Positions 16,191 to 51,623 of a stretch of DNA of 64,000 nucleotides are shown one piece after another. This stretch comes from Promethearchaeota archaeon (GTDB taxonomy: Archaea > Asgardarchaeota > Lokiarchaeia > Sigyniarchaeales > SOKP01). Each line of letters opens with the position of its first letter. Within the stretch, counting starts at the first letter, position 1. The DNA is taken from positions 1 through 64,000 of the forward strand of contig JAHPYZ010000011.1 of the NCBI GenBank assembly GCA_019058425.1, in the 5' to 3' direction. A program made the position numbers and the translations under genes. The notes beneath the pieces are model-generated. The model searched no databases. It was given only the letters and a program-made list of their open reading frames with translations, and was not told the origin of the DNA.

Positions 16191-17564
16191 TCATATCTCT
16201 TCACGAAGTTTGATAATTTTTCTTTTTAGCTTCTTAATTCGAGAATCAGAAATATTATAAATTAGAAAACTCTCGAGAATTTTTAATGCTTTTTGATAAT
16301 GCTGAATACTATTGATATAATCACCACTTTTTTCAGCGTTTTCTCCTGCTTTTAATGTAAAGTCTAACTCTATTTGTTTGACTTGTTTATCCAATTCTAA
16401 CAGAATTTTTGAAATTCGATCAATTTGTGATTTGAGTTTAAACTCTCTTGCCAAGAAAAGGGCTTTTTTATATTCTTTTTCTCCTACTTGATATGCTAAA
16501 GCTTTCTCAGCAGTTTTACCTTTCCTGATCAATTCTTTAATAACATTAATTGCTGAATTCTCATCCATATCTTCCATTTGTTCTTTTAATTCTTCAATAT
16601 CTGAGTCTGTAATAATCATCGATGATATTGGTTTGTATTTTTCAGCTTTTTCATCTTGAACTTCTTTGATTCTTTCCAGATTACTCACAGCTGCCTCTAG
16701 CTTAGTTGGTATAATAGTTTTATTCTCTACTAGCTGATATATCTGGTATAAAATAACATGTGAATCTAAGTTTACAATTTTTTTTACTCGATTTAGCAAA
16801 TTATTTATAAAAAAGAAGGATTTCGAAACAAGTAATTCCTTAGCAATATTAAAAATTGCTTTTTGAATTTGATTTTGGTTGATTCCCTCCAAAATTTTAG
16901 GAGCAATTGATTGAGTTAAAATCATAGGGAAAACTAGCCTAATTTCAAATGAATCTACAATAAAATCAACCATATTTTTAAAATAAAGCATTCCAGCACT
17001 TCGAAAATTAATAAGTTCTTGACTGTAAGTGTCTTCAAATTCAGGGATGAAATGTAAGACTTGAGTTTTCATATTCTCAGAAGCTTTATTATCAAGCATC
17101 AAGCAGAGTCTAATAAACTCTCCATCTCTTAAGAGAATATTAAAATCTTGATATTGAAATTCATAAAAGTTTTGATCTCTTGTAGATTGTGAAGACTTAT
17201 ATGATTCTTTATGTGATTCAGAAAATCTAATATTTGCCTGAATGAATCCACTCAATAGATCTGCCTTTATTTCTTCTCCTGAAACAGGGTAGTTCAATAG
17301 TGTTAATCCTGATTCATTATCCATAACTATTATATGTCTTATATTGAGAACATCCGAGAATTTTCGATAGATTATTTGTTGTTCCATCTTAATGCGACGG
17401 TCTTCTGATTCGATCTCAAAAACCTTAATCTCAGAATCCACTTCAAATCCAAGTTGTTTCAACTTATTTTTAACACACGCAAAACAATACTTTGGATATT
17501 TTACACATTTCTCCTTAATTTTTCCACAATTAAATCCCAAGTGGTCTATCTCAAAATAAACCAT
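16191..17564 (-). CDS. Cys-cluster protein with longin/roadblock-like core and C-terminal helical repeats
   Basis: A 457-residue protein of no named family. The N-terminus has C13, C20, C27 and C30, a probable metal site. Residues about 75-180 alternate strands and helices (HIIVMDNESGLTLLNYPV, then EIKADLLSGFIQANIRF, later FNILLRDGEFIRLCLMLD). This is the pattern seen in longin/roadblock-type domains that are abundant in Asgard genomes. The last 100 residues are helical, with a TPR/MIT-like AGENAEKSGDYINSIQHYQK. A role as an adaptor around small GTPases or membranes is inference only. It starts at ATG 17564 and is convergent with the nucleotidyltransferase. Confidence 0.55.
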   Translation of the reverse strand: MVYFEIDHLGFNCGKIKEKCVKYPKYCFACVKNKLKQLGFEVDSEIKVFEIESEDRRIKMEQQIIYRKFSDVLNIRHIIVMDNESGLTLLNYPVSGEEIKADLLSGFIQANIRFSESHKESYKSSQSTRDQNFYEFQYQDFNILLRDGEFIRLCLMLDNKASENMKTQVLHFIPEFEDTYSQELINFRSAGMLYFKNMVDFIVDSFEIRLVFPMILTQSIAPKILEGINQNQIQKAIFNIAKELLVSKSFFFINNLLNRVKKIVNLDSHVILYQIYQLVENKTIIPTKLEAAVSNLERIKEVQDEKAEKYKPISSMIITDSDIEELKEQMEDMDENSAINVIKELIRKGKTAEKALAYQVGEKEYKKALFLAREFKLKSQIDRISKILLELDKQVKQIELDFTLKAGENAEKSGDYINSIQHYQKALKILESFLIYNISDSRIKKLKRKIIKLREEI

Positions 17565-23057: not shown

Positions 23058-24008
23058 TTGATTTTTTCACAAGAAGTAGGAATTTCTCCAGAATTACATA
23101 TTTTTAGCGAAGAGTTATATCTAAATTTATTAAGAATTAATCTTTATAGAATTCTTGACATAAGTATAAAAGATACCCCTATTAGGAAATTAGGAAAAAT
23201 TAAAATTCTGAAAGAATCTGAATTAAATTCAGATTTCGAAGATATAATAAAGTTGGTTATCTCTATCATGAAACCTCAGATTTTATCTAGAAACATTGGA
23301 TTAGAGCATCCAAGTGTAAGGAAAGTAATAGAGATAGCTGAAGAGATTATGAGCAAAAACAAGTTATTAAATGTGGAAAATCTCTATAATTTGGCAAAAA
23401 AACGATTGAATTTATCGAGAAATGGCCTTCTATTTATAATAAAATTTTTGATTAATAAAAAGATTCTAATTGAGGGATCAAAGTTTTCTAAGGAAACTGT
23501 TCTTTTAAATGGTATTAGAAGAAATATTTATAACTATATTAAAGTAAATCCCGGTGTACATTTCTCTTTATTAAGAAAAAAGGCATTATCTGTCGAATCT
23601 GGTAGTTCCGGGCAATTAATATGGCACTTAGAGATGTTAATAAAATTTAATTATATCAATAAAACTAGTGTAGGGAATTACACCATTTTTTTTCCTATTG
23701 AGATGGAGATTGAATTTGGAATTATAACTTTTCTATTACGAGATAGGATTAATTTAAAAATTATCGAGTTTATAGCTACACATAAATCAATCAAAAAATC
23801 AGAAATTTATAAATTAATAGACGAAAAAAGAGATCTCGTTAATTATCGTATAACCAATCTAATAAACTATGATTTGATCTATTTTGAAAATGAAAACACT
23901 AAGGAGCTCTGTATAAATCCTACCAAACAAAGTGATATTTTTGATATTATCAATATTTTTAGAAAAAAATTGAATAAAACTGAATTAAAAAAAATTAATA
24001 AAAGATAA
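23058..24008 (+). CDS. multi-winged-helix protein, probable transcriptional regulator
   Basis: A 316-residue basic protein with repeated winged-helix-like units. Residues about 95-150 (VENLYNLAKKRLNLSRNGLL), 150-215 (RRNIYNYIKVNPGVHFSLLR with a degenerate second helix) and 225-290 (LKIIEFIATHKSIKKSEIYK, then LVNYRITNLINYDLIYF) each look like a wHTH. The C-terminal tail is lysine-rich. The start is TTG at 23058. It ends 5 bp before the 7TM-longin gene, so the two are almost surely co-transcribed. It could regulate that receptor gene or work with it. Confidence 0.65.
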   Translation: MIFSQEVGISPELHIFSEELYLNLLRINLYRILDISIKDTPIRKLGKIKILKESELNSDFEDIIKLVISIMKPQILSRNIGLEHPSVRKVIEIAEEIMSKNKLLNVENLYNLAKKRLNLSRNGLLFIIKFLINKKILIEGSKFSKETVLLNGIRRNIYNYIKVNPGVHFSLLRKKALSVESGSSGQLIWHLEMLIKFNYINKTSVGNYTIFFPIEMEIEFGIITFLLRDRINLKIIEFIATHKSIKKSEIYKLIDEKRDLVNYRITNLINYDLIYFENENTKELCINPTKQSDIFDIINIFRKKLNKTELKKINKR

Positions 24009-24013
24009 GAAAA

Positions 24014-25330
24014 ATGGTATTAAATTGGACACCTGAAATCATTGTAGAAATATTCACAAGTTCGATTATTTTAATAGCTACACTATTAATGTTCATTACA
24101 CCGAGAACAAAGAATATTAAATCATTGTCGTTTATCAGAGTAGCTCTCTTTTTCATGGGTATGCTTTTTGCGCTAGATTTGCTAGCAAATCTTTATTTGA
24201 ACCAATTTCTTTCCCGAATTTGTGGACTTATGCTATTTCCTAGTGCAGTGTTCTTTGCAATTGGTATAAACTATACAATTAAAGAAACATTTAATTCCCC
24301 ATTCTTGCTTATAGCTGTGGGTTTAGGTATTTTATACACTTACTTAGCATTTCAACCTGGGGCAGTTAGATTTGAAATTGAGGGAGATTATTTAAATTTG
24401 AATTGGATTGGCTTATACGAATTAGGGGGTTTAATTTTCATATTCTTTGTTGGGAGTGCTTCATTTTATTGGGGATTAAAAACTTGGTTAAATGCTCCAT
24501 TTTTAATTAGAAGAGAAGCGTCCATTTTTTTCCTTGGTACTTTAATAAATGGCCCCTTAACTCTACTTATTTACACCTTTTATTATTGGAATCCAATTTT
24601 TATTTTGTTTGCCTACGCAACTACTGGTTTAGGAAACTTATTTGTTTGTCTTGGTATATTAATGGAGCCTAAACTCTTATATATTTTACCATTTACAGTT
24701 AATAGGATTGTTGTAAGAGATCGAAATGGTAATGCATTATATAATTATGATTGGTCTCTTTCTAGTTTAAGGGAATCAGTTTTTACTGGATTTCTAAATG
24801 CAGTACAACTTATGAGCGATGAAGTAATAAATATGGGAGGGTTGTTGGATATAAAATTAGAAGAAGGGATATTAACATTATATGAATCGGATTTAATCTC
24901 AGTTGGATTATTATCGTCCAAATCTTCGAAACTATTAAGAGAATGTGTTGTGGGGTTCTCAATGGAATTCCAAATTATTTTTGAAAAGGAACTTAAGCAA
25001 TCATGTGTAAATCAAGCGAAATATGAGTCTGCATATGATTTGATAGAGAAATACTTCTCCAACTTTCCTTATAAAATGATTACTAGCAAAAAACAATCTC
25101 TGATTTTATCAGGTGAATATACAAAAATACCTTTAGAGTTGGAAAGTAATTTTAAAGAGATTTTCCAAAATGAGATGGAATATAATTTCATTAAAATTGA
25201 ACTTCAAAAGTCTCCTTTAAACCAAAGCTCAGAGTTTTTTTCATTATATAACGATTTAGAAAATGAAGCGCGAGAAATGGTTGAAGATAATTCAAAATCT
25301 CTGGAATATAAACTCCATGATGAACTTTAA
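24014..25330 (+). CDS. seven-TM protein with cytoplasmic longin-like domain, paralog A
   Basis: Seven hydrophobic helices are visible at about 8-28, 39-60, 68-87, 95-113, 131-155, 168-190 and 196-216, putting a short N-terminus outside. Residues 221-330 then form an alpha/beta unit: LLYILPFTVNRIVVRDRNG, ALYNYDW, FTGFLNAVQLMSDEV and LISVGLLSSKSSKLLRE. This resembles the longin/roadblock-type platforms that eukaryotes use to bind small GTPases and that are expanded in Asgard archaea. The last 110 residues are helical and acidic. It is a likely membrane receptor passing information to a GTPase or transport system. The family is not one I can name. Confidence 0.65.
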   Translation: MVLNWTPEIIVEIFTSSIILIATLLMFITPRTKNIKSLSFIRVALFFMGMLFALDLLANLYLNQFLSRICGLMLFPSAVFFAIGINYTIKETFNSPFLLIAVGLGILYTYLAFQPGAVRFEIEGDYLNLNWIGLYELGGLIFIFFVGSASFYWGLKTWLNAPFLIRREASIFFLGTLINGPLTLLIYTFYYWNPIFILFAYATTGLGNLFVCLGILMEPKLLYILPFTVNRIVVRDRNGNALYNYDWSLSSLRESVFTGFLNAVQLMSDEVINMGGLLDIKLEEGILTLYESDLISVGLLSSKSSKLLRECVVGFSMEFQIIFEKELKQSCVNQAKYESAYDLIEKYFSNFPYKMITSKKQSLILSGEYTKIPLELESNFKEIFQNEMEYNFIKIELQKSPLNQSSEFFSLYNDLENEAREMVEDNSKSLEYKLHDEL

Positions 25331-25579
25331 AGTTATAGATTGAAAAAATCAATGATTAGAATTATATATTAATACTATAGGCAATTCAAAACTAATATAA
25401 AAAATGGAAAATTGACAATTATGTAAAAGAAAAAGTTATTATATATTTATATACTAAAATAGATTACATATTATTCGTAATTTACGTTTAGTAAAGGAAT
25501 CCTCTTCAATATATTGAACCCTTAAAAGAAGAAGTTTATTTATCTAAATTAAATAAATATAAAAAAAGGCGTAAGAATA

Positions 25580-26878
25580 TTGTTAAATTGGACTACTGAA
25601 GTAATTGTTGATTTCATAGTAGGAACAATTATTTTCTTAGCCTTAATAATAACCCATTTTGAGCCTAAAATCAAAAAACTCAGATCAATCCTCTATATTA
25701 GGATAGCAATATTTTTTATGATGCTAGTTTTTTACATCGATGCTTTGAGTATTCTTTATTTAAATATCACTTTGTCACGATTCAATGCATTTAACATTGC
25801 CTTCACCTCTATTTTTCTCTTAATGGGAGTTAATTACATCTCGAGACAAACCTTCAATTCAATCTTTTTAATTATTAATTGTTGTTTAGGAACATTAATG
25901 GTTTATTTAGCTTTTCAAGCAGATTCAATTAAACTTGTAACTGAATTTGGATACTTAAATATAAAGTGGATTAGAGCTCTTGCATTAATGGATATTATTA
26001 TATCTCTTAACCTAGTAGTAGTATTACTATATTGGGGTTTTAAAACTTGGGTAAATTCGCCTTTTTTAATTAAAAAAGAGAGTTTAATATTCTTAATAGG
26101 GATACTCTTTATAGGACCAATCTATCTCATTTTCTATATACTCTACTATTTAAATATCCTATTTGTTACAATTGGGGATCTTTTAATGGGTCTGGGAACT
26201 TTAATATTTTGTTTCGTTATAGGAAGAGAGCCAAAGTTATTGTATATACTCCCTTTTACAATTCATAGAATTGTAGTAAAAGATAGAAATGGAAATCCTT
26301 TATATGATCATGATTGGTCTCAATCAAATATAAATGAAACGATATTTACTGGATTTTTAAACGCAGTTCAACTTATGAGTGAAGATGTAATGCAAATTGG
26401 AGGTTTATTCGATATAAATTTGGAAGATGGTATTCTTATTTTACGAGAATCTGCACAGATCACAGTCGGTCTTGTCTCATCGAAATCCTCAAAATTGTTG
26501 AAAGATTCAGTAGTTAAATTTACAGCAGATTTTGAAAAAAAATTTGAACGTGAATTAAAAAAGTCAATTAAGGATATGACTCAATATGAAGGGGCATATG
26601 AACTTATAGAAAAATACTTTTCAAATTTTCCATATAAGACTATTAAAAGTAAAAAACAACCCATATTTCTTACAGAGAGATATACTAAAATTCCTTTAGA
26701 ATTAGAGAATAAACTTCGTACAATTTTTAATGATGAAGAAGAATATGAAGCTATTAAAGCTGAATTAATAAAATCTCCCCTTTCTTTTATTTCAGAGTTT
26801 ATCAGACTCCATGATCAATTAAAAGATGAAGTAAAAGGGATTTCATCTGAAGATATTAAATATCTAAATGAGAATTAA
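25580..26878 (+). CDS. seven-TM protein with cytoplasmic longin-like domain, paralog B
   Basis: A paralog of the protein encoded at 24014. It has the same LNWT opening, the same seven-helix layout, and near-identical cytoplasmic motifs (LLYILPFTIHRIVVKDRNG, LYDHDWSQ, TGFLNAVQLMSEDV, SSKSSKLLKDSVVKF and EKYFSNFPYKTI). The TM halves have diverged while the longin-like halves are well conserved. This suggests different ligands outside and the same partner inside. Translation probably starts at TTG 25580. A 249-bp A/T-rich gap precedes it and holds no other gene; it may hold its own promoter. Confidence 0.65.
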   Translation: MLNWTTEVIVDFIVGTIIFLALIITHFEPKIKKLRSILYIRIAIFFMMLVFYIDALSILYLNITLSRFNAFNIAFTSIFLLMGVNYISRQTFNSIFLIINCCLGTLMVYLAFQADSIKLVTEFGYLNIKWIRALALMDIIISLNLVVVLLYWGFKTWVNSPFLIKKESLIFLIGILFIGPIYLIFYILYYLNILFVTIGDLLMGLGTLIFCFVIGREPKLLYILPFTIHRIVVKDRNGNPLYDHDWSQSNINETIFTGFLNAVQLMSEDVMQIGGLFDINLEDGILILRESAQITVGLVSSKSSKLLKDSVVKFTADFEKKFERELKKSIKDMTQYEGAYELIEKYFSNFPYKTIKSKKQPIFLTERYTKIPLELENKLRTIFNDEEEYEAIKAELIKSPLSFISEFIRLHDQLKDEVKGISSEDIKYLNEN

Positions 26879-27828: not shown

Positions 27829-28635
27829 CTATACTAAATTAAATTCTGTTAATTGGTTCTTCAAATTTTCAGCTAATATCCCTAATTTCTGTGCTGTAGT
27901 TGAAATTTCCTCTATTGAAGATGTCTGTTGCGTTGTAGATGAACTTATTCCCTCTATAGAAGAAGATGTCCTATAGATTTTATTAATAATTTCTCCAATT
28001 TTACCGCCTGTGTTTATAACTGCATTTTTTGATTCTTCAGCTAATTTCCTTACCTCATCAGCAACTACAGCAAATCCTCTTCCATGCTCACCCGCTCTTC
28101 CTGCTTCGATACTAGCATTTAGAGCTAATAGATTTGTTTGTTCAGAGATATTGGTTATTAAATCCATTATGACTTGAATTTCATTTGAGGTTTTAACAAC
28201 ATCTCGAGAATCTAAAGCAATATCTTGAGTTGTTGAGGATATTTCTTCTGATGCGGCATTTACTTCACTAATACTCGCTGCCATTTCTGTAGCGATATTT
28301 GCGACAGATACAGAAGTTTGAGAACTAGATTTTAACAAGGTTTTAATTGTATTCTCTTGACGTAGAATAACTTTAATGATATAGTAAAATGAATAAAAAA
28401 CTAATGCAACAGCAGGAGGAATCATACATAGAATAGTAATTAGGTCACTATCAAAAGGATCTAGAGCAAATATCACAAATATCATCAACACAATAATTGC
28501 TATAGTCATAATTGAAATTACTCTAAAAGCTAAAGATTCTCTGTTTAATCCATACTTTCTCTTAAAGAAAATGAATGCTAAGGCAAAGACTCCTACTACC
28601 ATTAATATTTCATACTCAAGTGGTATTTGAGGCAT
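27829..28635 (-). CDS. minimal methyl-accepting chemotaxis-like signal transducer
   Basis: About three N-terminal helices (residues 8-25, 37-58, 64-90) are followed directly by an MCP signalling domain. The hairpin tip [41 protein letters not shown] contains the E-I[14 protein letters not shown] core read in two parts, and the following IEGISSST helix region is where methylation would occur. There is no HAMP domain and no extracellular sensor. No che genes occur in the window. It may signal from membrane state or through a partner such as a 7TM receptor. Confidence 0.78.
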
Positions 28636-29073: not shown

Positions 29074-29787
29074 ATGGGTATTAGAAAGATTGAAGATGAG
29101 ATTGACCTAAAAGAAGCTATGAAAAAGAAAGCTGCCGAATTGAAAATGAAGGACATGCAAGCAAAAGCCTCAGTTGAAAAATTCACTAAAGATAAACTAA
29201 GAGACCTTGCTAAGAAACATGGTGTTTTATTAGCTTTAACTCCCGAGTTAAGAAAAGAAGTAAAAGAATTGCAGAAAAAGTATAATATTCCCTCTTCAAA
29301 AATTATTACTGACCAAATAACAGAGCATGATGTTTTAAGAAAGTTCTCAAAAATAGATCACCAAAAATTAGGAATGTTAGCATACCAAAGAGTTTTGATG
29401 AGTAAAGAGGAAACTGGAGGAATTATCCCGTTATCAGAAGTCTATGAATTAGTTAATACAGGAATTTTAAATGGTAACATTGAAGTAAAAGATGTAGAAA
29501 AATCACTACGACTGCTGAAAAAAACAAAAGTTATTGATGATATAACCGAATTGGAATCAGGATCAATTATTATAAGATTTTTTCCCATTGAGTATACGAG
29601 TGATGAAGCCAAGGTTGTTGATTTAGCTAAAGAGAAAGGTGTTCTTACTTTAGAAGATGTTTGTACTAATTTAGAATGGTCACAAGATCGAGCTTTAAGA
29701 TCTTTAGAATCACTCGAAAGAAGTGGTATTGCTAAATTTAGGGAGAACATCTTAACTGGGAAACAATGGTATTTCCCCTCATTGTGA
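29074..29787 (+). CDS. ESCRT-II EAP30-domain subunit (Vps22/Vps36-like)
   Basis: A 237-residue protein whose layout follows eukaryotic Vps22/SNF8. It has a basic N-terminal helix (LKEAMKKKAAELKMKDMQ), a linker, and then two winged helices. The end, LEWSQDRALRSLESLERSG followed by GKQWYFPSL, mirrors the WETERARQ...EAHYWLPAL end of SNF8. EAP30 proteins form the stem of the ESCRT-II Y complex and bind Vps25. The gene converges with the Vps25-like gene with only 15 bp between stops. This supports a common role in membrane remodelling; Vps22 against Vps36 identity cannot be told. Confidence 0.85.
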   Translation: MGIRKIEDEIDLKEAMKKKAAELKMKDMQAKASVEKFTKDKLRDLAKKHGVLLALTPELRKEVKELQKKYNIPSSKIITDQITEHDVLRKFSKIDHQKLGMLAYQRVLMSKEETGGIIPLSEVYELVNTGILNGNIEVKDVEKSLRLLKKTKVIDDITELESGSIIIRFFPIEYTSDEAKVVDLAKEKGVLTLEDVCTNLEWSQDRALRSLESLERSGIAKFRENILTGKQWYFPSL

Positions 29788-29802
29788 GGAAAATTATTAA
29801 AC

Positions 29803-30696
29803 TTATTCTAACTTAATTTTAAACGCTAATTTTCCATCATCCAACTTTAAGATTTTAGCTTTTCGATTCTTAGCTAAAATCTTGAAAATCTCTTCCAGAT
29901 CTTCAAGTGGAAGCGAGCTAAAATCTTCTTGTTTTGCTTCTCTTAATTCATAGATCATGATTGGCTCAATTTTTCCATTCTCATAAGCCCATTTCCATAT
30001 TTCATCAGACCATACTTCAAGAGTTTTCCAGTATACTCTCAAACTTTCTTTCTTTTTTGAAAGCCATTTTGCTTGGTTCTGACTTATTAGTTCTTCAGAA
30101 ATTTCTTTTATGTATTGCTCCCTTTTAGTAAAATTCATGAATGGTTTATGAGTTGTTAACTCTCTGGTGTAGATTATATGAAGAATAGCAAATCTAGCAT
30201 AATCAAAAAGAACTTTTGCCCATTCTGTTTTCCACGAAATATAATCATTTTTGTTTTTGTTTTTATCAGGCATATCATACATGAACTTCTTTCTTTCCTC
30301 TTCGAGCCAAGGATATGCTTGCAACAAATTTTCATAAGCGGTTAGTTTCTTTTCGATTAGACCTTTTTCTCCAATAATTTCTTCTTCAAGGGTTTGTAAC
30401 TCTGATTCAATTTGATCAGCATGCTTTTGATAAACTTTAGTGTCTATCTCCCCTAGCTTGGAGGACAAAATATCTTCAAGTTTATCAAATTGTTCTTCAA
30501 TAAAATCTAACTCTGTGGCTTTTATTTCATCTTCCTTAATGATATGCTTTTGTGTAGCTTCTATTTCCAATTGCTCTTTTTCTTGTTTTAATATCTTTAA
30601 CCTAGCCAGTTCTTTCCTTAATTCCTCTAACTCTTTTTCTGCTTTTTCTTTAACTTCCTTTGGAACTTCAGTTGATCTTTCTCTTTGTCTTTCCAT
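29803..30696 (-). CDS. ESCRT-II Vps25-like subunit with N-terminal coiled coil
   Basis: The C-terminal 165 residues match Vps25. YPWLEEERKKFMYDMPD corresponds to the WPWQYRFPPFFT start, WAKVLFDYARFAI to the first winged helix, and SLRVYWKTLEVWSDEIWKWA to the region ending in the second winged helix (IMIYELREAK, LKLDDGKLAF). In front is about 125 residues of charged heptad-like sequence (KELEELRKELARLKIL and so on), a coiled coil absent from eukaryotic Vps25. Vps25 normally links the ESCRT-II stem to the ESCRT-III protein Vps20. The stop lies 17 bp from the start of the next gene downstream on the map, vps4, which is transcribed first. Confidence 0.85.
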   Translation of the reverse strand: MERQRERSTEVPKEVKEKAEKELEELRKELARLKILKQEKEQLEIEATQKHIIKEDEIKATELDFIEEQFDKLEDILSSKLGEIDTKVYQKHADQIESELQTLEEEIIGEKGLIEKKLTAYENLLQAYPWLEEERKKFMYDMPDKNKNKNDYISWKTEWAKVLFDYARFAILHIIYTRELTTHKPFMNFTKREQYIKEISEELISQNQAKWLSKKKESLRVYWKTLEVWSDEIWKWAYENGKIEPIMIYELREAKQEDFSSLPLEDLEEIFKILAKNRKAKILKLDDGKLAFKIKLE

Positions 30697-30713
30697 ATTA
30701 ATCGTTTACTTTT

Positions 30714-31925
30714 CTAAAATTCTCCGAATTCTTCCGCCCATGCATTATATTGTTTTAATAATGCTGCGTTGGTCATCGGTTTTACTTTTTTAAGTGCTTT
30801 TTTGAAATCTTTTACTGTAATATCTCTAACCTTTACTTCTTTATCGGAATCTTCTAGAAGTCCCCCCATATCTAACTCACGTACGGGCATCATTATTACT
30901 TCACGACATACATTTGCGATATCTCTTCCAGAATAACCTTCACTTCTAACTCCTAGTTCAACAAAATCCTCTTTTGTTAATGCTGAATCTACTCCCTCAG
31001 TATGGATTTTAAATATTCCGGCCCTACCTTTTAAATCTGGAAGAGGTACATGCACCCTTTTTTCAAATCTACTTAGCATGGCATTATCTATGTCCCAGGG
31101 GCGATTTGTTGCTCCTAAAACCAACAATGGTTTTCCACGACCTGATTTTAATCCTTGAATTTCGCTTAAAAGCTGAGTTTTAACTCTTCTTTCACCACCA
31201 CTCTCAGAACCTTCTCCCCGTTTTGTTGCTACAGAGTCAATTTCATCCATAAATATTAGACTTGGTGCTTTTAATCTAGCAACTTTAAATAAAGAACTAA
31301 TTAGTTTTTCACTTTCACCTAACCATTTGCTTAGTAGATCTGCTGAAGAAGCACTAAAAAATGTAGCATTGCATTCGGTCGCAGCAGCTTTAGCTAATAA
31401 GGTCTTACCACATCCTGGAGGACCGAAGAGTAAGATTCCAGACCAAGGCCTTCTAGCACCTGTAAATAATTCTGGCTTTGCTATTGGCAAAACTATCGCT
31501 TCTCTCACTGCTTGTTTTACGTTTTCTAATCCTGCAATATCATCCCACCTTACATTAGGAGATTCTGTGACAATTGTACCAGATATCATATCAATGAGTT
31601 CTTGTTCTTCGGATGATACACTCGTCTCACCCTTTGATTCATCATCATCCCCTGAAACACCAGGTCTTCTAGATGGTCTCGCGCTTCTAGGTCCACCAAG
31701 TTGAGATTTTAATATTTTTGCACGTTCCACATATTCCTCTATATTTTTTTGACATAAAGCTCTCATTTGAGGATTTTTGTTATATTTCATGAACTGTATT
31801 AGAATTTCGGCAGCTCTATTATATTTATTTATAGCTTGATGATATTTTCCTTGACTATCTAGCAAAACAGCCTCTTTTGCTGTTGATACTGCATATTGAT
31901 AAAGTTTTGAATCTACCGACGACAT
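30714..31925 (-). CDS. vps4: Vps4/CdvC-like AAA ATPase with MIT domain
   Basis: Residues 1-75 are a helical MIT domain (YAVSTAKEAVLLDSQGKYHQ and AINKYNRAAEILIQFMKY). After a disordered linker, the AAA cassette has Walker A GPPGCGKT at 168-175, Walker B LIFMDEID near 223-230, GATNRP as sensor 1 and LSRFEKR as the arginine-finger region. The C-terminal YNAWAEEFGEF matches the Vps4-specific last helix. It disassembles ESCRT-III filaments after recognising their C-terminal MIM motifs. It is read first, with the Vps25-like gene 17 bp downstream, and diverges from the ESCRT-III gene at 32114. Confidence 0.92.
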   Translation of the reverse strand: MSSVDSKLYQYAVSTAKEAVLLDSQGKYHQAINKYNRAAEILIQFMKYNKNPQMRALCQKNIEEYVERAKILKSQLGGPRSARPSRRPGVSGDDDESKGETSVSSEEQELIDMISGTIVTESPNVRWDDIAGLENVKQAVREAIVLPIAKPELFTGARRPWSGILLFGPPGCGKTLLAKAAATECNATFFSASSADLLSKWLGESEKLISSLFKVARLKAPSLIFMDEIDSVATKRGEGSESGGERRVKTQLLSEIQGLKSGRGKPLLVLGATNRPWDIDNAMLSRFEKRVHVPLPDLKGRAGIFKIHTEGVDSALTKEDFVELGVRSEGYSGRDIANVCREVIMMPVRELDMGGLLEDSDKEVKVRDITVKDFKKALKKVKPMTNAALLKQYNAWAEEFGEF

Positions 31926-32075
31926 AATAACTTTATAAAAACCATTTTATTATTTGTTTTTAATCTAATTTAACAATTAGTAATATTAATAATTTTATCC
32001 GCATATATCAAATTTACTCTTTAACCTAATGAGATTAATGATTGGTCTCCAAAAAATTAAATACTCATCATAGCA

Positions 32076-32085
32076 TTTATATATT
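32076..32085 (+). promoter_or_regulatory. TATA-like box of the ESCRT-III gene
   Basis: TTTATATATT ends 28 bp before the ATG at 32114, which would give a transcript start within about ten bases of the start codon. This is typical for near-leaderless archaeal mRNAs. No other good box lies closer. The divergent vps4 promoter must lie between it and 31925. Confidence 0.45.
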
Positions 32086-32113
32086 AAATAATTACTAATT
32101 AGATTTGATAAAA

Positions 32114-32752
32114 ATGGGTTTCTTAAAAGATATTTCTAAGTGGTTATCTGGCGGGAAGAAGGATAAGAATACTGTACGATCTGCTGCCATCAAATTAAAA
32201 GTCTTTAATAAGAGATTATTACGACAAGTAAAAAAATTGGAGATGAGTGGAAAACTAGCAAGAGATAAAGCAGTGAACCTCAGAAAGCAAGGCGACCTTG
32301 AAGGATCTAAATTCCATGCAAGGAATTATTTACAAATTAAAAAGCAAGGTAGAGCTGTAGAAATGTTCCGTACAAATTTGGAAGGGCTTTTATTCAAACT
32401 AGAACAAGCAAATGCAGTTAAAGATGTATCTGAAATTATGACTGGTATTGCACAATCTCTTTCAACTTTAAAAACTCAGCTTTCTGTACCACAAATGACT
32501 GAGATTATGAGCCAAATCGATATTGATATGGAAGAATTTGCTGTAACTGCAGATATTGCAACAGATGGTATGGATAGTATTAGCATCGATACTGCTGTAA
32601 CAGATTCAGACGTGTCTGAGGTTTTAGGCGAAATTGATGCTGAGATCCAAGTAGAAATGGGTGTAGCCTTACCAAGTGCCGCTTCTGGTGCTTCAGATGA
32701 AAAGATAGCCGAATTAGAGAAAGAATTAAATCGTTTGAAATCAGATGAATAA
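32114..32752 (+). CDS. ESCRT-III-like filament protein (Vps2/24/46 type)
   Basis: From the ATG at 32114 the product is 212 residues. A short amphipathic start (MGFLKDISKWLSGG) is followed by the basic ESCRT-III hairpin (AAIKLKVFNKRLLRQVKKLE, KLARDKAVNLRKQGDLEGSK), then helices with QLSVPQMTEIMSQIDIDMEEF. It ends in an acidic region and a C-terminal helix IAELEKELNRLKSDE, which fits the MIM1 pattern (L-x-x-E/R-L-x-x-L-K) recognised by MIT domains. An upstream in-frame TTG (32105) is less likely because a TATA box sits at 32076. It polymerises on membranes and is recycled by Vps4, encoded next door. Confidence 0.9.
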   Translation: MGFLKDISKWLSGGKKDKNTVRSAAIKLKVFNKRLLRQVKKLEMSGKLARDKAVNLRKQGDLEGSKFHARNYLQIKKQGRAVEMFRTNLEGLLFKLEQANAVKDVSEIMTGIAQSLSTLKTQLSVPQMTEIMSQIDIDMEEFAVTADIATDGMDSISIDTAVTDSDVSEVLGEIDAEIQVEMGVALPSAASGASDEKIAELEKELNRLKSDE

Positions 32753-32954: not shown

Positions 32955-33506
32955 ATGGAATTAAGTTTCAAAGTTATCATAATCGGTCCCGGAGCGGTAG
33001 GGAAAACTAGTTTACTTAATAGGTTCGTACACAATGAATTTTCCTTAAAATATAAGTTAACTATTGGCGTTGATTTCTTAACCAAAAGTTTAGAATACGA
33101 ACCTGAAAAATTTGTTAAACTCCACATATGGGACATAGGAGGGCAAGAAAAATTTAAATTTCTCCATCGTAGCTTTTACGAAGGTGCATTTGGGGCTTTA
33201 ATTGTCTTTGATCTCTCAAGACATCAAACTTTTTCAAGTATGAAAGAGTGGCTTTCAGAAATGCGGAGTATAGTAATTAATGATATCCCTAGCGTAATAC
33301 TTGGAAATAAATCAGATCTAATACCCGAAATTGGCCAGACAATAGATAGAAAGGAAGTAGAAGAATATGCTAAAAAGGAAGATTGTCTCTACATTGAAAC
33401 ATCAGCTAAAACCGGAGATAATGTTGAAAAAGCTTTTCTTGAACTTACACGTCGTATGGTAAAGAAGATAGGAAAACTGGTAACAAAAAGTAAAGAGGAT
33501 TCATAA
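32955..33506 (+). CDS. Ras/Rab-like small GTPase
   Basis: A 183-residue GTPase. G1 is GPGAVGKTS at 11-19, switch I Thr about 36 in KLTIGVDF, G3 WDIGGQE at 59-65, G4 NKSD at 118-121 and G5 SAK at 150-152. G3 reads IGGQE where most Rabs have TAGQE. Gly remains at the fourth position but Ala is replaced by Gly, as in some Arf-like and Asgard GTPases. The C-terminus (VTKSKEDS) has no cysteine, so it cannot be prenylated by the eukaryotic route; membrane recruitment would need a partner. It lies 200 bp downstream of the ESCRT-III gene on the same strand. Confidence 0.9.
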   Translation: MELSFKVIIIGPGAVGKTSLLNRFVHNEFSLKYKLTIGVDFLTKSLEYEPEKFVKLHIWDIGGQEKFKFLHRSFYEGAFGALIVFDLSRHQTFSSMKEWLSEMRSIVINDIPSVILGNKSDLIPEIGQTIDRKEVEEYAKKEDCLYIETSAKTGDNVEKAFLELTRRMVKKIGKLVTKSKEDS

Positions 33507-34725: not shown

Positions 34726-34828
34726 GCGCTCTTAGTATAGTGGTAAGTATGCCAGGTTGCCAAGAACTATGAGGAAAAGCATCGTTCGCAATTACCTGGC
34801 GACCCGGGTTCAATTCCCGGAGGGCGCA
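34726..34828 (+). tRNA. tRNA-Gly(GCC) with intron at 37/38
   Basis: The acceptor GCGCTCT pairs with AGGGCGC, with one G:T, followed by the discriminator A; the T-arm CCGGGTTCAATTCCCGG is intact. The anticodon stem is CCAGG/CCTGG. The loop TTGCC plus two bases is interrupted by about 31 nt (34763-34793) exactly after position 37, the canonical archaeal intron site processed by the bulge-helix-bulge endonuclease. A TATA-like TGATATATTT lies some 20 bp upstream. The CCA end is not encoded. Position assignments were made by hand pairing. Confidence 0.9.
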
Positions 34829-50822: not shown

Positions 50823-51623
50823 ATGGGAATACAAGATCGACTACCCTTGTCTTCAATAATTAAGAGATCTTTTGATAATATTAACATTCACAATATCTTT
50901 ATCTTTAATAGATCTGGTGTTTGTTTTTATGGCAAAAATTTTACTGATTATTTTAAAGTTGAAAAAAATCTTGTCTCTCCTTTCATCACAGCCTTGATGT
51001 CTTTCTCTAAAGAAATGATTGGAAAAAAATTCAAGACATTAGAAATGGGTGATGTAAAATTTGTAATTTTTGAAATGGGCTCAATGAATTATAATATTCT
51101 ATGTGATACAATAGAAAATGAAAAATTTTTGGAGGAAACTATTTCAAAAATTAATAAACGCCTTTCGAAATATATGATTAAGAATAAAATTAATATAGAT
51201 GACCAAATCGTATTCGATAGTAAATTAATTGAAGTTATTGAAGAAATTATTGATGATGTATTTAGTAATGAGTTTAACTTAAAGAATGAAAAACAGATTA
51301 TCGAATATGTAAAAGAAACGATATCATTTGATGGAATAGATGGTAATATTCTTTTAACTGATAGAGGAAAAGTGATATATTCATCCTACAATACATTAAA
51401 TTTAAAAAACTTCTTAAAAGAGGTCGAATTTCGTGTTAAAATTCATAATAATTCAATCTTAAAGCTTTTTTATACCTTAAAAGATAATAGATTTATATTT
51501 TCAGAATATGTTAATAATAAATATTTTGTAATATTGGTTTTTAATTCACATGTTAAATTTGGGATGGCTGAACATTATTTAGCTCGAATTGTAAAATCTA
51601 TCAAAAATATTCTTTCAGATTAA
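50823..51623 (+). CDS. two-domain longin/roadblock-like protein
   Basis: A 266-residue protein. Residues 20-115 (NIHNIFIFNRSGVCFYGKNF, NLVSPFITALMSFSKEM, VKFVIFEMGSMNYNILCDT) have the strand-strand-helix-strand-strand-strand-helix pattern of a longin domain. Residues 165-262 repeat it: GNILLTDRGKVIYSSYN, FLKEVEFRVK, LFYTLKDNRFIFSE, YFVILVFN, and a final helix AEHYLARIVKSI. Such domains bind small GTPases or form transport adaptors. No TM helix is present, so the protein is cytosolic. The family is not one I can name. Confidence 0.6.
   Translation: MGIQDRLPLSSIIKRSFDNINIHNIFIFNRSGVCFYGKNFTDYFKVEKNLVSPFITALMSFSKEMIGKKFKTLEMGDVKFVIFEMGSMNYNILCDTIENEKFLEETISKINKRLSKYMIKNKINIDDQIVFDSKLIEVIEEIIDDVFSNEFNLKNEKQIIEYVKETISFDGIDGNILLTDRGKVIYSSYNTLNLKNFLKEVEFRVKIHNNSILKLFYTLKDNRFIFSEYVNNKYFVILVFNSHVKFGMAEHYLARIVKSIKNILSD

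Follow-up and report, generated by a model that had tools for sequence, protein, structure and literature searches.

Gene content of the locus

The window, by which we mean the whole 64,000-nucleotide stretch of DNA analysed, carries on its forward strand two paralogous genes, A and B, preceded by a gene for a winged-helix (HTH) regulator (Table 1). The initial annotation described A and B as seven-helix (7TM) membrane proteins with conserved cytoplasmic and variable membrane halves, and this description holds: both open reading frames exist, seven transmembrane helices are predicted by AF2, and the two proteins align end to end across 429 residues at 50% identity (E 1e-149), with 66% identity in the longin domain, 40% in the 7TM region and 49% in the C-terminal extension. 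The same gradient appears in the family-wide means (66%, 41% and 45%, respectively), so it is a property of the whole family and nothing special to this pair. Profile and similarity searches recovered relatives from 55 of the 65 genomes of the family, and a 7TM profile matched 76 of the 228 genomes of the phylum (30 of 62 genera), so the pair of open reading frames is not a product of chance. Searches of A and B against Pfam and NCBIfam gave no credible match; hits to EnY2, DUF1800, adenylosuccinate lyase, Arm_3 and WbqC fell below cut-off and were rejected as chance.

Table 1. Positions of the paired genes and their predicted parts within the window.
Feature	Position	Strand	Basis
Upstream in-frame extension of HTH open reading frame; translation doubtful	23058..23267	+	C-terminal extension HMM in relatives
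Winged-helix regulator, ~246 aa from conserved Met	23268..24008	+	PF24266, HTH_24
7TM-longin receptor A, 438 aa	24014..25330	+	ORF list, AF2
7TM sensor region of A, residues 7-217 (predicted)	24032..24664	+	AF2, positive-inside
Longin-fold domain of A, residues 229-347 (predicted)	24698..25054	+	AF2, Foldseek
C-terminal helical extension of A, residues 353-438 (predicted)	25070..25327	+	HTH-paired members only
7TM-longin receptor B, second copy, 432 aa, TTG start	25580..26878	+	ORF list, alignment to A
Longin-fold domain of B (predicted)	26261..26617	+	Homology to modelled A domain
C-terminal extension of B	26633..26875	+	49% identity to A

As first annotated, the winged-helix gene ends 5 bp ahead of the ATG of A; a gap of 249 bp separates A from B, and on the sequence it is plausible that all three genes are transcribed together. 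Homologues of the HTH protein align to the ATG at 23268 and not to the listed TTG at 23058, which is probably not the true start. The protein matches PF24266 (HTH_HVO_0163_N) over cut-off (E 1e-7) and HTH_24 at E 0.0036, and has at least two predicted winged helices; the PF24266 domain is present in 17 of 22 members of the HTH family, with a second winged helix predicted. The stretch between the two candidate starts is probably the remnant of an earlier 7TM-HTH joint. In a 13-sequence set, an HMM of the 7TM C-terminal extension matched the region ahead of the HTH in three relatives (L095, E 1.2e-7; L075, E 1.6e-7; L062, E 1.9e-5), which fits an old joint of both genes; on the window's own pre-HTH region it reached only E 0.34.

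Just beyond the window, at contig positions 66651-67925, is a third 7TM copy with a homologous HTH gene upstream. It is oriented divergently from a cluster for a sugar ABC transporter, and the binding protein encoded there matches SBP_bac_1.

Membrane topology

The AF2 model of A, computed from a 49-sequence alignment (pLDDT 75.7), has seven transmembrane helices (residues 7-28, 36-61, 64-90, 96-112, 133-160, 163-189 and 196-217) followed by a cytoplasmic domain. Inner loops hold on average 10.4 lysines and arginines vs 1.4 in outer loops, and the direction is the same in 49 of 49 family members, which places the C-terminal domain in the cytoplasm, as had been proposed; placement outside the cell was not found. 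The 7TM-longin proteins are thus predicted to be N-out/C-in. In the model of A the outer loops are short, with a single 20-residue beta hairpin.

Seven helices and an N-out topology are shared with G protein-coupled receptors (GPCRs), and a Foldseek search with the 7TM part listed class C and class A GPCRs at E 5e-3 to 3e-2. Unlike GPCRs, the window proteins come without a heterotrimeric G protein and without any match in sequence: they matched none of the GPCR families in Pfam, a 7TM-only profile found no GPCR in the PDB and the full-length profile reached only CXCR1, at E 0.054. Given this, and Foldseek TM-scores of just 0.27-0.37, homology to GPCRs was rejected.

Another parallel is offered by HisKA_7TM (PF16927) and 7TMR-DISM_7TM (PF07695), which are likewise 7TM input modules ahead of cytoplasmic outputs; the 7TM module of relatives of A and B also precedes histidine kinases. 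Among 42 relatives, one matched PF16927 (E 4.1e-5) and one PF07695 (E 4.2e-4). The window proteins differ in matching neither family in Pfam and in having a longin domain and an HTH partner as their output.

Fold of the cytoplasmic domain

Modelled in the full-length protein and alone (pLDDT 82.6 and pTM 0.80 for the isolated domain), the cytoplasmic domain of A has the order beta-beta-alpha-beta-beta-beta-alpha-alpha, with no N-terminal helix. Comparison with known longins was made by fold search in place of profile-profile alignment. All 50 of the 50 best Foldseek matches in the PDB were longin or roadblock folds, headed by AP2 sigma (E 2.5e-4, TM-score 0.65) and including COP zeta, Ragulator, the VAMP7 longin, TRAPPC1 (TM-score 0.62) and MK-D1 roadblock2. 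The E-values are modest, but the matches are uniform and the helix order is that of a longin by published criteria (PMC10933270), so the longin fold is a firm assignment for the modelled domain, bearing out the longin-like domain of the initial annotation. A roadblock/LC7 identity was rejected on the same helix order, since a roadblock would have an N-terminal helix and one C-terminal helix; roadblock structures aligned over only ~75-110 residues of the domain, and the window genes are absent from the 23 PF03259 (Robl_LC7) matches of the genome.

The predicted domain agrees in fold and in strand and helix order, including the extra C-terminal helix, with TRAPPC1/Bet5, the VAMP7 longin, AP-sigma and COP-zeta, and known longins align across most of it at TM-scores of about 0.5-0.65. 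It differs from them in lacking a significant sequence match, in being joined to a 7TM region and in having no SNARE or TRAPP context. Against the Pfam longin profiles, the window proteins gave no match over the curated cut-off and relatives matched only below it.

A superfamily profile built from 25 members found ~49 domains in this genome, a number similar to the 41 longin superfamily members of Lokiarchaeum, in the same phylum, five of which are fused to Arf-like GTPases (PMC4917890, PMC10933270). Pfam matches within the superfamily were weak, two members matching Sybindin (best E 2e-4) and two Fuz_longin_1 (best E 2.5e-3); the signature GFLxAI in alpha-1 is widespread among the Loki members.

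Pairing of the 7TM and HTH genes

The proposal that the winged-helix gene and the 7TM gene form one unit is strongly supported across relatives. Among loci fetched by 7TM similarity alone, 41 of the 42 intact long-form 7TM genes (428 or more aa, with a 75-residue extension) had an HTH gene next to them or fused on, as against none of the 23 short forms, in which the extension is missing; the sole intact long-form gene lacking its own adjacent HTH is B, at 25580. When two truncated 7TM genes are included, the HTH lies upstream in 39 cases and downstream in three, and is fused in one. Adjacent genes share a strand, with gaps of -53 to +71 bp, and the fusion joins 7TM, longin, extension and HTH in one natural polypeptide of 676 aa (L049/L090). 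In the reciprocal search, 52 of 55 core HTH genes adjoined a 7TM gene and the remaining three lay near contig ends. The pair also occurs in two further families of the order (L207 and L237), once with a 4-nt overlap. Sensor and DNA-binding domain are therefore near-exclusively paired and once fused, as in a membrane-linked regulator.

The pair also co-diverges as a cassette: HTH and 7TM distance matrices correlate at r = 0.88, and when HTH copies were permuted among the paralogues within a genome r averaged 0.63, with 0.0002 of permutations reaching 0.88. The initial annotation had read the unequal conservation of A and B as different inputs feeding one partner; the different inputs stand, whereas the single partner does not, as HTH and 7TM copies duplicate together and each has its own HTH. 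Linkage and co-divergence would also follow from a single operon duplicating as a block, and the HTH could simply regulate its own operon. The C-terminal extension, of low pLDDT in the AF2 model, is confined to HTH-paired members.

Related architectures and distribution

A search of Asgard genomes for the same fusion, as the initial annotation had suggested, found it well outside the family, ~360 aa 7TM-longin proteins being present in many genera of the phylum. Nearly all of the distant loci opened have 7TM and longin together; in three (L204, with PAS and REC; L205, with REC; L213) the 7TM region instead precedes HisKA-HATPase without a longin. The full order 7TM-longin-HisKA-HATPase occurs in L044, and L054 is alike by sequence. 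That the 7TM module also stands ahead of histidine kinases marks it as an input module. Two of the 7TM-histidine kinase proteins end in a C-terminal receiver.

Longin domains are joined to other membrane parts as well. In the window's own genome, tandem MFS-like transporters (L036, contig C11, 2233-3882 and 3939-5570) each have a C-terminal longin, with Sybindin matches at E 0.022 in one search and 9.6e-4 in another, and are possible transporter-receptors. Further multi-TM-longin proteins occur in L150, L152 and L154, and giant proteins with an Ig-like ectodomain, a transmembrane segment and a longin are likely of the kind mentioned among Asgard longin proteins (PMC10936438).

The initial annotation knew of no such layout in bacteria; every related locus found here is from Asgard archaea, bar two probably mislabelled contigs. 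The gene on one of these (L113, labelled Bathyarchaeota) is the same gene as that of L209, from a genome assigned to the order of the window, which suggests a labelling or binning problem; the same probably applies to L097, labelled Pacearchaeota. The presence of the 7TM-longin fusion in several classes of the phylum suggests that it is probably old.

Genomic neighbourhood

Downstream of the pair, the window holds an ESCRT cluster (29074-32752) encoding EAP30/Vps22, a Vps25-like ESCRT-II protein, Vps4 with MIT, and Snf7. One lineage of the cassette is fixed beside these genes in the order CYTH-NSUN-HTH-7TM-PUA-EAP30-Vps25-Vps4-Snf7, and is found with EAP30 in 16 loci. Other cassettes adjoin NosD/beta-helix surface proteins (L064, L079 twice, L085), other secreted giants or a solute-binding protein (SBP_bac_1), and an MFS_2 sugar transporter follows one pair. 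Large secreted-like neighbours were enriched beside pairs off the ESCRT locus (9 of 34 vs 29 of 383, p 0.0016), in a test devised after the neighbours had been inspected and with secretion scored by a crude hydropathy proxy.

Interpretation of the cassette

We interpret the locus as a two-protein cassette of membrane sensor and transcription regulator with the longin domain as cytoplasmic relay, a reading to which we give a probability of about 0.55, with its mechanism inferred. Having almost no extracellular domain, the 7TM sensor would perceive a small or membrane-borne signal. The sensor is joined to a cytoplasmic longin and a putative helical C-terminal extension, and a DNA-binding protein with winged helices in tandem would come from the paired gene. 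Signals reaching the membrane part may alter the platform formed by longin and extension, which would hold, release or switch the winged-helix protein and so change transcription of linked genes. Candidate targets at other loci are the surface beta-helix proteins, the sugar ABC transporter and the MFS_2 sugar transporter; at the window locus the ESCRT-locus genes may be targets. We infer contact between HTH and longin through the extension because the extension strictly co-occurs with the HTH; this contact, the direction of signalling, the ligand and the target genes are all presumptive. The window family thus most likely signals to genes rather than to a nearby GTPase, and its cassette is best read as belonging to an Asgard-wide 7TM-longin class that is also joined to histidine kinases.

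One-component regulators of the ToxR/CadC type are membrane-linked transcription regulators. They resemble the cassette in coupling a membrane sensor to a winged helix, and in L090 the two are fused here too; the window family differs in usually using two genes, seven transmembrane helices instead of one, and a longin relay.

A role for small GTPases had been expected, with the gene at 32955 as partner. On that account the longin would offer a Rab- or Arf-like GTPase a platform for docking or exchange, the 7TM part would be GPCR-like and the HTH would only regulate expression of the operon. Longin and roadblock folds do bind small GTPases in TRAPP, Ragulator and MglB (PMC10933270), and L155 combines one of the genome's ~49 superfamily domains with a P-loop domain that contains GELGVGKT and has no Pfam match. 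The expected partner is nevertheless not supported: the Rab-like gene at 32955 is kept in only one of 11 syntenic loci spanning Snf7 to PfkB, and a Rab-like gene stands within 1 kb of just two of the 39 long-form 7TM genes. Nor is a longin fold alone proof of a GTPase, because the PAS/GAF/longin superfamily has many roles (PMC4917890). Eight genomes, with 7TM proteins of the short sister family that are 68-92% identical to one another, do have a Rab-like gene 20-40 bp from the 7TM gene, but it is convergent, not co-transcribed, and confined to a single orthologous locus. A GTPase may thus still play a part in the short family, and a link between 7TM-longin proteins and GTPases is best sought there; for the window family this lends no support to such a role. 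Signalling through a GTPase platform and through an HTH relay are not mutually exclusive; as an account of the longin domain here, the GTPase platform is unlikely. The Rab-like gene of the short family adjoins a short tandem 7TM-longin pair in L103-L109 and L111.

Slightly less likely still is that the longin serves only as a dimerisation or signal-relay spacer before any output, like PAS or HAMP, with no partner of its own. The histidine kinases preceded by 7TM-longin (L044, L054) or by 7TM alone agree with this, as do the shared GFLxAI signature and the membership of longin and PAS/GAF in one broad superfamily (PMC4917890), but short-family proteins end in the longin and carry no output after it, implying that the longin itself has a binding partner. 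We regard as doubtful, too, an evolutionary scenario in which ancient Asgard 7TM receptors activated Rab/Arf-like GTPases through a longin dimer, a pre-eukaryotic GPCR-like layout from which the HTH-paired, DNA-signalling Loki branch was derived. Least probable by a clear distance is that the membrane protein is a component of the ESCRT locus linked to transport or traffic, acting in membrane remodelling under a local HTH repressor: the pair is kept between NSUN/CYTH and PUA-EAP30-Vps25-Vps4-Snf7 in the 16 loci above, and there are reports of Asgard longin proteins carrying ESCRT-type domains (PMC10936438), but many pairs lie elsewhere, beside sugar transport or surface-protein genes, and L056, with a receptor 80% identical, has no ESCRT gene within the following 7.7 kb.

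In eukaryotes, longin domains lie at the heart of the GEFs, coats and SNAREs of trafficking; Asgard archaea have dozens of copies, and a published caution warns against inferring trafficking from them (PMC4917890). The large syntenic family described here shows that in Asgard archaea the fold can serve as the cytoplasmic part of seven-helix membrane proteins, whose genetic ties are to gene regulation or to histidine kinases, those to GTPases being weak. If the signalling cassette is confirmed, longins may have carried signals from membrane to genome earlier than, or alongside, their use in trafficking, and a concrete HTH-7TM pair and a natural fusion are now available to test this. The longin fold, the 7TM sensor and the winged helix are each of known kinds; their combination, pairing and spread are absent from the literature searched. 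That search, for 7TM-longin proteins or longins with histidine kinases, returned no description, an absence that is not proof of novelty, and the papers on the expanded Asgard longin superfamily among those searched do not describe the 7TM-longin, MFS-longin or 7TM-longin-histidine kinase architectures.

Other features of the window

A tRNA of 103 nt, an intron-like length, is found by Rfam at 34726-34828 (forward strand, 54 bits) and is missed by ARAGORN. On the reverse strand, 27829-28635 encodes a short protein with an MCP signalling domain; it has hydrophobic stretches near the N-terminus, and no ligand domain could be recognised in it. Two further genes of the window (16191-17564, reverse strand, and 50823-51623, forward strand), whose products have no Pfam match, carry a Loki longin-superfamily domain, at E 3e-21 and 2e-6, respectively.
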